Below, in pieces: positions 1-39,849 of a DNA stretch of 64,000 bases. The notes beneath the pieces were generated by a model. The model made no database searches and was not told where the DNA came from. It was given only the letters and a program-made list of their open reading frames with translations. Origin of the DNA: Paenibacillus daejeonensis DSM 15491 (GTDB taxonomy: Bacteria; Bacillota; Bacilli; Paenibacillales; Paenibacillaceae); contig NZ_KB899672.1 in assembly GCF_000378385.1 (NCBI RefSeq), positions 62,001-126,000 of the forward strand, read 5' to 3'. The position numbers and the translations under genes were made by a program. Each line of letters starts with the position of its first letter. Position 1 is the first letter of the stretch.

Positions 1-26
1 TGGAGAAAAGCGTATGCTTTCGAAGT

Positions 27-159
27 CGCTTTCTTGCAGAAAGCGTGTAGCGCTCGCCTTTGTACCCGGAATTCAACCTCTATAGAGTTTATCAAATCAA
101 GAATTCTGGGAACAACAGCGATCGTAAGAACGATTCACACACCCGCAGGCTCTCTTTTT
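27..159 (+). repeat. Structured dispersed repeat, copy 1
   Basis: Non-coding element related, in direct orientation, to 38899-39088. In order it contains a hairpin (CGCTTTC 27-33 with GAAAGCG 39-45), a long stem (CCCGGAATTC 65-74 with GAATTCTGGG 101-110) enclosing a small hairpin (CTC 78-80 with GAG 85-87), then a hairpin (ATCGT 121-125 with ACGAT 130-134), and it ends in a T run at 155-159. The corresponding stems in copy 2 carry different bases that still pair, which suggests selection for structure. Function is unknown: it could be a small transcribed RNA, a terminator-like repeat or a mobile miniature element. The true 5' boundary may lie before the window. Confidence 0.6.
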
Positions 160-192
160 CACCACGCTTTTAAATCCATGTTCATAAGGGAT

Positions 193-318: not shown

Positions 319-1386
319 ATGGCGACGAAATTATATCTTCTCTATGGCGGTCAATCCGCCGAGCATGAGGTTTCCCTGAAGACGGCCTTGACCGTGCTAA
401 ATGCAGTCGACAAGAATAAATATGTGGTACAACCGATCTATATTACGCGGGAGGGCATCTGGTGTCAGCCATGGATCGCGCAGGACGAGCTGCGTGAACC
501 CGAGCAGCTGCGCAGACAGCCGTCCCATGATTCGAAGGCAGCATCCATCGGAGCGTTCCTGACAGCAATGGCTGAGGGCGATAGTCTGGTGTTCCCGGTG
601 CTCCACGGTCCGGGTGGCGAAGATGGTACGGTCCAGGGCCTGTTGGAGCTGGCTGGCGTACCTTATGTGGGCAACGGCGTGCTTGCCTCGGCGGTGGGCA
701 TGGACAAACTGATGACGAAGCGAATTCTGGAGGCGCATGGTATCCGGCAAGCGCGCTATATCGAGCTGCAGCAGCGCGACTGGCAGACCGCACCGGAGCA
801 GGCGATAACCCTACTGGAGCAGGAGATTGGCTATCCATGCTATGTGAAACCGGCCAATATGGGTTCAAGCATCGGAATTAGCCGATGTGCCAATGTCGAA
901 GAGACGCGGGCTGGCATTGAACTCGCCCTGCGTTATGACGTCAAACTGGTGATTGAGGCCGAGGTAGTAGGCCGCGAAGTTCAATATGCGGTAATGGGCA
1001 ATGAACAGCCGCGCTGCTCGATTGGCGGTGAGTTTGTACGGGAACCGGATTTCTTTGATTATGACAAAAAGTACAAGCAGGGCGGGTTGGTCCAGCAGAT
1101 CCCTGCCGTCTTAACCCCTCAGCTTGATGAAGCGATGCGGGAAACGGCCCTCCGCGCCTTCCGAGCGCTGGATGGTGCTGGTCTGATGCGCGTGGATTTC
1201 TTTGTCACGGACGGTGGGATCGCGTATCTGAACGAAGTCAATACGCTTCCAGGCTTCACAGCCATCAGCATGTACCCCGCCCTATGGCGGGAGACGGACG
1301 GTACAGCCTACCGTGAGTTGATCGACAGCTTGATTGAACTGGCACGAGAGCGTCAGGGAGCTCGCCGCCAGGAGGTGCTGTCATGA
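319..1386 (+). CDS. ddl: D-alanine--D-alanine ligase
   Basis: A 355-residue ATP-grasp ligase that joins two D-alanines in the cytoplasm, giving the dipeptide MurF adds to the peptidoglycan precursor. The N-terminus carries the family signature GGQSAEHEVSLKTA. The central ATP-binding segment includes KPANMGSSIGISR (around residue 178), and the C-terminal metal-binding signature EVNTLPGFT is near residue 304. Length is normal. GGGAGG lies 9 nt before the ATG. The stop overlaps the murF start by 4 nt, so ddl-murF-alr is one translationally coupled operon that covers D-Ala supply and use. The leader hairpin at 250-309 may control the operon. Confidence 0.97.
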   Translation: MATKLYLLYGGQSAEHEVSLKTALTVLNAVDKNKYVVQPIYITREGIWCQPWIAQDELREPEQLRRQPSHDSKAASIGAFLTAMAEGDSLVFPVLHGPGGEDGTVQGLLELAGVPYVGNGVLASAVGMDKLMTKRILEAHGIRQARYIELQQRDWQTAPEQAITLLEQEIGYPCYVKPANMGSSIGISRCANVEETRAGIELALRYDVKLVIEAEVVGREVQYAVMGNEQPRCSIGGEFVREPDFFDYDKKYKQGGLVQQIPAVLTPQLDEAMRETALRAFRALDGAGLMRVDFFVTDGGIAYLNEVNTLPGFTAISMYPALWRETDGTAYRELIDSLIELARERQGARRQEVLS

Positions 1387-38582: not shown

Positions 38583-38607
38583 TATCGTTCAGAAATTTAG
38601 GATGTGT

Positions 38608-38832
38608 CGGCAACCCGCTGGTCGTGCGCTGTAACGCACCATTGTTCCTTTATTTGCTCGGCAACCCGCTGGTTATGAGCTGTAATGCACCATTGTTCCT
38701 CTATTTGCTCGACGGGCCGCTGATTGTGCGCTGTAACGCACCATTGTTCCTTTATTTGCTCGGTAGCCCGCTGGTTGTGAGCTGTAACGCACCATTGTTC
38801 CTTTATTTGCTCGGCAACCTGCTGGTTGTGCG
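38608..38832. repeat. 51-bp tandem repeat, about 4.4 copies
   Basis: Units beginning CGGCAACCCGCTGG or a variant start at 38608, 38659, 38710, 38761 and 38812 (partial): an exact 51-bp period. Each unit contains a region that can fold (GTGCG with CGCAC in copies 1 and 3, weaker in 2 and 4) and the constant CACCATTGTTCCTTTATTTG. The frame stays open across the copies because 51 is a multiple of three, but there is no ribosome site and the only ATG is in the preceding terminator, so coding is doubtful. Confidence 0.8.
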
Positions 38833-38898
38833 TGTTGTTCTATCCGTACTTCAGTCTGTTTAAAAGGGCCGGAGAGGCACGGAATCGAATCTGGTCAA

Positions 38899-39088
38899 CG
38901 CTTTCTGAAAGAAAGCGACATCGGGAGCATAAACTGCGGAGCGTTCGCCTGAAAGCTTTTCGCAGAAAAGCTAGCTTCGAAAGCATACGCTGTCCCCGGA
39001 TTTCACCCCTAAATGGGGTAAAAATCAAAGAAATCTGGGGACAATAGCGATCGGAAGATCGATCCGTGACCGTAGGTTCCTATTTTTT
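38899..39088 (+). repeat. Structured dispersed repeat, copy 2
   Basis: Related to 27-159. Hairpins in order: CGCTTTC/GAAAGCG (38899-38917), AGCTTTTC/GAAAAGCT (38954-38972), long stem CCCCGGATTTC/GAAATCTGGGG (38994-39040) enclosing ACCCC/GGGGT (39005-39019), CGATC/GATCG (39048-39061), then a T run (39083-39088). It lies between convergent genes, directly after the stop of the gene at 39091. Copy 2 has one additional hairpin and about 55 nt more than copy 1. Confidence 0.65.
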
Positions 39089-39090
39089 AT

Positions 39091-39849
39091 CTACTGCACT
39101 CTCCGTCTAAAGAAGAGGAGTCCAAGAAGGAGCAGCGCCACGACTCCAGCCGCGGAATAGGCCGTGAGCGCGACCGTCTCATTCGCTCCCTGCTGCTTGA
39201 CGCCGATGCCGATCAGCGCCCAGACGAAGACGAGCATGAACGCGGCATCCGTGAAGCGGTAGCCGATAATGGCCGCTAGCGCCACTGCAATCACAATCAG
39301 AATGACCGTCCACGTCGTATCGCCAAGCCCGAAGCCTTCCCAGCCGGCATCATAAAGCAGAACCGTAATGTTCACGATGGTCGCTACACTGATCCAGCCC
39401 ATGTAGATACTGAAGGGGAGGTAGACAAATATGCGCTCTCCGAGAGTCTTGGGCTCACTGGAGGTCCGAATCCGCGTGTACAGGACAATCAGCGACAGCA
39501 GCAGAGCCAGCATGACGCCTACGGACACGGGGAGCAATTCGTAGTGCCACACAATAATCCACGTACAGTTAAATAGACAGGTGAGCAGGAACCAAATGCC
39601 GACGCGCTGCACACTGTCCCGGTTCATGGTGCGGGGCATCGCCTGGTAGATGATAAAGCCAATGAGCAGCACATAGATTAGGCTCCAAATCGAGAAGACA
39701 TAGCCAGCCGGTGTAATCAAAACCGGATATTGATCGGATAATTCACCAGTTGTCTTGCCGGCAATGGGCAGTGTATTCGCCAGTGTGTTAACCACCAGGA
39801 CAGCGATGAGACCTAGCACATTCAACCAACGGTAAGGGTGAGATCGCAC
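39091..39849 (-). CDS. TspO/MBR-like tryptophan-rich membrane protein
   Basis: A 252-residue membrane protein with about seven to eight helices. Patterns such as PAGYVFSIWSLIYVLLIGF, CLFNCTWIIVWHYE and YLPFSIYMGWISVATIVN recall TspO/tryptophan-rich sensory proteins, which bind porphyrins or act in stress responses. The start is a GTG at 39849 preceded by AGGAGG at 7 nt. It stands alone on the minus strand with the structured repeat beyond its stop. The family assignment is by recognisable pattern; the role in Bacillales is not established. Confidence 0.78.
   Translation of the reverse strand: MRSHPYRWLNVLGLIAVLVVNTLANTLPIAGKTTGELSDQYPVLITPAGYVFSIWSLIYVLLIGFIIYQAMPRTMNRDSVQRVGIWFLLTCLFNCTWIIVWHYELLPVSVGVMLALLLSLIVLYTRIRTSSEPKTLGERIFVYLPFSIYMGWISVATIVNITVLLYDAGWEGFGLGDTTWTVILIVIAVALAAIIGYRFTDAAFMLVFVWALIGIGVKQQGANETVALTAYSAAGVVALLLLGLLFFRRRVQ

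Follow-up and report, generated by a model that had tools for sequence, protein, structure and literature searches.

ERIC is an intergenic hairpin of ∼127 bp with inverted ends that occurs in many copies. The Correia repeats of Neisseria are also named NEMIS, and the bcr repeats of the Bacillus cereus group are structured interspersed repeats from the same class of bacteria as Paenibacillus. ERIC was reported to act as an RNA hairpin in Yersinia, and for Neisseria and Yersinia palindromic repeats (Correia, YPAL) are reported to determine mRNA stability (PMC2267715). Paenibacillus is not named in the main text of PMC2267715 or PMC12306157. Here we describe a structured, intergenic element of which genomes of Paenibacillus and of many related bacteria carry dozens to >100 copies. 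Two copies lie in the window, the whole stretch of 64,000 nt of Paenibacillus daejeonensis DNA that was analysed. The many intergenic copies are able to fold, which places the element among the dispersed structured intergenic repeats.

With ERIC the element shares a many-copy intergenic hairpin, inverted ends and a possible action as RNA. Compared by description rather than by sequence, it differs in the order of its hosts and in having a multi-helix junction, conserved strands and optional modules, whereas ERIC is one long stem. NEMIS/Correia and YPAL, likened by description only, are also palindromic repeats but have different hosts. The bcr repeats belong to another host group, and covariance model R1 of the element matched no genome beyond its own family in a class-wide draw. 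REP and BIME sequences with RAYT are likewise high-copy extragenic hairpins, although the element is much longer than REPs. It resembles the cis-regulatory RNA classes of Rfam in its conserved junction strands, covarying stems and apparent position in mRNAs, and differs from them in that there was no gathering-score match and no gene function common to its copies. Our searches of the open literature found no description of the element, and a full-text search there for the letters of its core sequence returned no paper. It appears to be without an existing name. By analogy, and without implying kinship, it may work like ERIC, NEMIS and the bcr repeats; it stands apart from them in its broad distribution, its conserved junction, the modules inserted into it and its sense bias.

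Sequence inspection showed that both copies noticed in a first-pass annotation exist and that the core and linkers are common to both. Their extents, given there as 38899–39088 and 27–159, were too short, as the outer arms of copy 2 start at 38851 and 38874 and copy 1 exceeds the window start (Table 1). Helix P0 of copy 2 is decayed. Its 5' arm is expected to pair at ∼39080–39091, and its own pairing in the arm test is weak (-3.6 against a median of -9.1). The hairpin CGCTTTC..GAAAGCG, common to both copies, is part of an optional module, which copy 2 carries in forward and copy 1 in inverted orientation. A D-alanine-D-alanine ligase gene (window 319–1386) comes after copy 1. Directly 5' of copy 2 is a 51-bp tandem repeat of 4.4 copies (window 38607–38830), and stretches like it were also seen on genome contigs C4, C5, C6, C7, C8, C10, C15 and C16.

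Table 1. Positions of the two element copies and their parts in the window.
Feature	Position	Strand	Basis or remark
Copy 2, whole (long form, two modules)	38851..39091, ends approximate	+	boundaries by comparing copies
Copy 2 P0 outermost arm, 5' side (TCAGTCTGTTTAAAA..)	38851..38868	+	end motif seen in other copies
Copy 2 P1 5' arm GAGGCACGGAATCGAATCTGG	38874..38894	+	pairs and covaries with 39055-39070
Copy 2 optional module 1 (hairpin + ACATCGGGAGCATAAACTGC)	38897..38937	+	missing in short-form copies
Copy 2 P2 mini-hairpin GC-GGA-GC	38936..38942	+	both pairs covary (GC/AU, CG/UA); overlaps final 2 bases assigned to module 1
Copy 2 P3 base, 5' strand TCGC	38945..38948	+	pairs with GCGA at 39047-39050
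Copy 2 optional module 2	38951..38991	+	missing in short-form copies
Copy 2 P3 5' strand GTCCCCGGATTTC	38992..39004	+	consensus fold and covariation
Copy 2 apical hairpin ACCCC..GGGGT	39005..39019	+	in fold; differs among copies
Copy 2 P3 3' strand GAAATCTGGGGAC	39030..39042	+	consensus fold and covariation
Copy 2 conserved core strand AATAGCGATCGGAAG (family form AACAGCGATCGGAAG)	39043..39057	+	column conservation in alignment A1
Copy 2 P1 3' arm AAGATCGATCCGTGAC	39055..39070	+	arm-swap test, covariation
Copy 1, cut by window start	1..163	+	P0 and P1 5' arms upstream, in fetched locus L048
Copy 1 module, inverted insertion	9..48	-	compared copies
Copy 1 P3 TTTGTACCCGGAATTC..GAATTCTGGGAACAA with apical hairpin	59..115	+	fold, compared copies
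Copy 1 core strand and P1 3' arm	116..140	+	arm test, compared copies

From the outside inwards, the layout is a pair of terminal inverted arms (P0), then P1, the mini-hairpin P2 and a long P3 with a variable tip. P0 arms of TCAGGCTGTTGAAAA/TTTTCAACAGCCTGA or of GCCCTCAAAA type were seen in copies from the window's genome (G000) and from a second genome of the genus (G004), so that copies of the window's genus carry terminal inverted repeats. The optional modules are ∼40 nt long and consist of a hairpin and a TTCGGAAGCATACGCT-like tail. One insertion point lies between P1 and P2 and the other between P2 and P3, and modules occur in either orientation; the copies most like copy 2 have one or two, and 42/103 copies of the genome belong to a short length class. 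Tandem inverted modules were seen in relatives L112 and L116. The idea that P0 is a host palindrome that pre-dated insertion of the core was rejected, as there was no bare P0 hairpin among nine end-motif sites (L175–L183) picked as lacking a recognised copy. The core was found in L176 and L182, truncated or decayed pieces of the element were recognised by eye in L175, L178, L179 and L183, and three had none of it.

By its covariation the element is a conserved, presumably transcribed structured RNA with a three-helix junction formed by P1, P2 and P3. Copy 2 folded much better than its shuffles (z -6.8, 0/200 as good), and the part of copy 1 that lies in the window gave z -2.5 with 4/200 as good. 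Consensus folding produced 27 pairs, 14 of them with compensatory changes. Alignment A1 drew its 55 copies from G000, from further genomes of Paenibacillus and from six viral contigs. The named P1+P2+P3 structure (27 pairs) was paired in 97.8% of its cells, both-side changes were present at 16/27 pairs in 102 cells, and 0/500 shuffles reached any of five measures. Shuffle controls ignore relatedness, on which a slide control and the orthologous loci bear; when the partner was slid by one column, pairing fell to 32–53%. The sequence of P1 varies widely with pairing retained, one P1 pair being AU in 23 copies, UA in 23, GC in 7 and CG in 1. P2 is tiny, shows GC/AU and CG/UA variation with every cell paired, and has mostly a G-N-A loop (G-N-A or G-N-N-A in 100/113 parsed copies, 34/147 being unparsed). 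Several pairs of the long P3 that are nearly constant in A1 covary in other genera, and its base TCGC/GCGA, constant in A1, varies there with pairing kept at some pairs. In 23 further copies from genomes G289 and G201, in an alignment that had been fitted to the model, 94.3% of cells were paired and 16/27 pairs had both-side changes, with 0/500 shuffles as good. A1 has 32 invariant columns, mostly in strands CTGGAGAAGCGnAGCGnTCGCCTTTGTC and GGACAACAGCGATCGGAAG; some of them vary in other genera, the strands being near-invariant overall.

The outer helices were examined by an arm swap among 98/103 copies of the window's genome (L055, L066, L090, L101 and L104 were left out). Own arms paired at -18.5 against -15.4 kcal/mol for permuted arms in P1, and at -16.3 against -11.0 kcal/mol in P0, with 0/2000 permutations as good in either case. 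The own arm was better than the median foreign partner in 87/98 copies for P0 but in only 62/98 for P1. Strand counts of G-U versus A-C were 101 to 46, but 62/101 came from one pair; the remainder was 39 to 46.

The first-pass annotation had proposed covariation in three stems on the basis of the two window copies. The main stem CCCCGGATTTC/GAAATCTGGGG covaries across 55 copies. The third stem (ATCGT/ACGAT versus CGATC/GATCG) failed, with 459/500 shuffles pairing as well on the same number of copies, and its 3' strand covaries instead with the outer 5' arm, in P1. The fold of copy 2 includes the apical hairpin, which is variable among copies, its pairs being outside the covariation count. The broader suggestion, that this is a family of conserved RNAs or functional repeats, was borne out by the covariance model, the genome searches and the covariation counts, and the further copies do covary. 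In a check of one 14-mer at ≤1 mismatch in its own genome only, no transposon shared the terminal motif; a mobile phase of the element is likely despite the absence of a matching transposon end. The element was also rightly placed outside the named RNA families: Rfam 15 has no gathering-score match in the window, and below that score only chance-level matches were obtained at the element (MAT2A_A at E 4.6 within the window; mir-4716 at E 0.63 in L161). Elsewhere, a sub-threshold T-box match was seen at L166 34–265 (53 bits against a cut-off of 93, E 8e-9).

Only two copies had been recognised at the outset. A 15-mer of the core, GGACAACAGCGATCG, has 181 sites in G000 at ≤2 mismatches, against 9 for a reversed-pattern control. 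A 25-mer at ≤2 mismatches has 122 sites there (control 0), 38 in G004 and a single one in G003; four further genomes of the same genus have none. BLAST of copy 2 against G000 (7.46 Mb, 36 contigs) returned at least 45 matching pieces, the best 40 of 171 candidates being scored. An exact 24-mer scan over named genomes matched 30 stretches, all from Paenibacillus. The 100 loci fetched from G000 gave, together with the window, 103 distinct copies, a subset of the ∼180 sites, and the first 40 had been picked for likeness to copy 2.

Covariance model R1 matched 244/295 genomes of the same family (13/19 genera), 192/246 genomes of the order (31/47 genera) and 27/299 genomes in the class-wide draw, all of the latter in the same family; these genome sets overlap. 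Searches of >40 genomes scored 11 to 13 candidates per genome, which makes their copy counts lower bounds. With 150 candidates scored each, four complete genomes had 92, 89, 25 and 62 copies at E≤1e-6. The model found at least 9 to 11 copies in each of the five same-genus genomes with 0–1 sites of the 25-mer, and because copies are still found there, the 25-mer difference is partly sequence turnover. With another copy as query, the element was found on three Paenibacillus plasmid records; plasmid records searched with the window copy gave no match, nor did the phage records searched. A 20-base core pattern was present in 22 viral contigs; of these, L260 and L265 appear by eye to be chance matches. 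A holin-type protein motif lies just 3' of the core in 16/22, and the two such proteins that were scanned (L139, L144) were both Phage_holin_4_1. The contigs with the holin motif (L139, L141–L144, L255–L259, L263, L266–L270) are phage-like, several ∼26 kb long, with one copy each.

Copies at orthologous sites were compared next to each other. G000 and G004 have five intergenic sites with copies in common, and three further groups of orthologous copies were found among other genomes. At the locus L151/L171/L169, P3 is CCCCAAATTT/AAATTTGGGG, CTCCGAATTT/AAATTCGGAG and CCCTGTATTT/AAATACAGGG in three genomes. The core strands there are nearly unchanged and P3 is rewritten yet paired; the adjoining intergenic DNA has diverged more. 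An outer arm reads CAGAT/ATCTG in one member of the pair L037/L194 and CAGAC/GTCTG in the other. The core is inverted at 2/5 G000/G004 sites, L081/L120 and L026/L118, the latter resting on a short match of one flank. In L081/L120 the inverted core lies between similar outer arms, as if flipped in place or inserted twice. One site has a single copy in G000 and two in another genome (L162). Cores tend to be more like copies of their own genome, so gene conversion or re-insertion may have occurred, and conversion among copies might mimic compensatory changes at a single site. From these comparisons we infer that copies arose by dispersal and that some have long been kept at their loci. The ends of G004 contigs C148 and C108 match the two flanks of window copy 2, the pattern expected if the assembly broke at a repeat.

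The neighbouring genes are diverse, with no common function, and thus point to no regulon for a signal; a search for one by neighbour class in G000 and elsewhere was negative. The downstream genes do not form a single functional class, as a leader of the riboswitch or T-box type would call for. BPD_transp_1 (ABC transporter permease) was found in 15/94 downstream versus 3/83 upstream neighbours in G000, and was absent among the first 25 families listed for 36 and 40 neighbours outside that genome. Gene directions were taken from a longest-ORF heuristic, not annotation. Outside the window's genus, 87 deduplicated copies were distributed as ++ 42, -- 6, +- 19 and -+ 19 (signs for the two neighbouring genes relative to the element), with one undetermined; copies sense to both genes thus greatly outnumber those antisense to both. 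This tally consists of 29 copies from L147–L174 (minus L166), 35 from G289 and G201 and 23 from regions picked for lagging-strand copies; it omits the window-genus genomes G000, G002, G003 and G004 (L146, L152, L166 and the G004 loci) and the pair of copies in L164 that turns up again in L227. The bias was weak in G000 (n=103; ++ 38, -- 27, +- 25, -+ 12, one undetermined) and in G004 (n=26; ++ 9, -- 6, +- 7, -+ 3, one undetermined).

With about even confidence, we favor an mRNA element that acts in cis, probably as a site of processing or stability that is recognised through the conserved junction and that was spread by copying and then kept. A core that stays fixed, outer pairing that varies, the sense orientation and the absence of a gene class are the reasons for reading it as a site of mRNA processing or stability, and a trans-acting factor is suggested because the junction is fixed within covarying stems. 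The element would sit in mRNAs, in 5' leaders, between cistrons and at 3' ends, where the factor, most likely a ribonuclease or an RNA-binding protein, would recognise the junction and set the processing or stability of the adjoining messages. The data show the covariation of the fold, its distribution and the sense orientation outside the window's genus; the cis action, the factor and the mechanism we infer. The weak orientation bias in the window's genus, unlike that of an obligatory sense element, counts against the mRNA reading, as do the opposite core orientation at 2/5 of the G000/G004 sites and neighbours without shared function. A rather unlikely alternative is MITE-like mobile DNA, in which the hairpin serves a transposase in trans and is selected for spreading with no gain to the host. 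It would account for how abundant the copies are in the window's genus and for their mixed orientation there, and it is favored by the inverted ends, the high identity among G000 copies, the 122 and 38 sites of the 25-mer in G000 and G004 versus 0–1 in five other same-genus genomes, the truncated copies, the modules inserted both ways, and the copies on plasmid records and in viral contigs. However, those five genomes each hold the model copies noted above, and the 35 G000 sites of a single end motif include, by our own reading, no opposed pair at insertion-sequence spacing. Mobilisation by a RAYT/Y1 transposase was rejected, as G000 has 0 matches to Y1 (PF01797), which 92/246 genomes of the order possess. 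No target duplication was apparent by eye, and an unsystematic look turned up no clean empty site. The sense bias outside the genus and the orthologous retention with stem compensation are also unexpected for a purely selfish insertion. The two readings may also apply one after the other: an old functional RNA may have been made a mobile repeat by one lineage, or a mobile repeat may have been kept as a functional RNA.

Near-invariant junction nucleotides and dozens of copies per genome are also what one might see if many RNAs titrated a protein in trans or sensed a metabolite, with neighbours incidental or riboswitch-like. We consider this improbable, given neighbours of every kind, no promoter-like site around two scanned copies (simple sigma-70 consensus), and copies that follow a gene in sense but face an opposed next gene, which are as frequent as upstream-only ones (+- 19, -+ 19). 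The DNA sequence d(GCGNAGC) forms a very stable hairpin, which the G-N-A mini-hairpin P2 resembles, and a single-stranded-DNA hairpin for replication or chromosome organisation would explain a leading-strand preference. Listed copies agreed on one strand per chromosome half in 53/69 cases in G289, 47/64 in G201 and 7/7 in G390, the listing covering 150 copies out of 268 matches. By the sign of GC skew the majority strand was the leading strand in G289 and G201; the skew regions were picked near majority-strand copies, so the strand counts rest on the chromosome-half listing. Such a role is nevertheless very improbable. G087 had no strand bias among 10 listed copies, and among the 23 copies in regions picked for the lagging strand, 20 had the sense orientation for at least one neighbour (7 of them for both) and 3 were antisense to both, where the model predicts most antisense. 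Only ten of the 23 have co-directional neighbours (7 sense, 3 antisense). The lagging label was assigned by chromosome half; local GC skew nearly vanishes in L239 and L244 and has the opposite sign in L252, and at least one of the 23, L237:2408, is a leading-strand copy. Since the lagging-picked copies are mostly sense to a neighbour, gene direction explains orientation better than replication does, and an orientation that follows gene direction argues for action as RNA. The terminal T run beside a strong hairpin, noticed early and present in both window copies, would fit a family of intrinsic transcription terminators, but this is extremely improbable: a consensus scan of two regions, the window and L151, found no terminator-like site at the element, intact P0 places the T run inside a stem, and many copies lie between co-directional genes.

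Carried further, the cis-acting mRNA reading would make the element an order-wide class, read by a dedicated factor in tens to >100 unrelated transcripts per genome, selected at many sites and forming a global post-transcriptional layer shared with phage-like late operons. We put this forward tentatively, with somewhat less than even confidence. If the element proved to be selfish throughout, it would be unusually old for mobile DNA, with no mobiliser yet in sight. An RNA whose conserved junction occurs at tens to ∼180 sites per genome across much of the order, and that was retained at some orthologous sites, would make up a large share of Paenibacillus transcripts that annotation misses. Should it serve processing or stability, it would show a dispersed repeat turning into a genome-wide regulatory signal, and would offer a handle on the factor that reads it.
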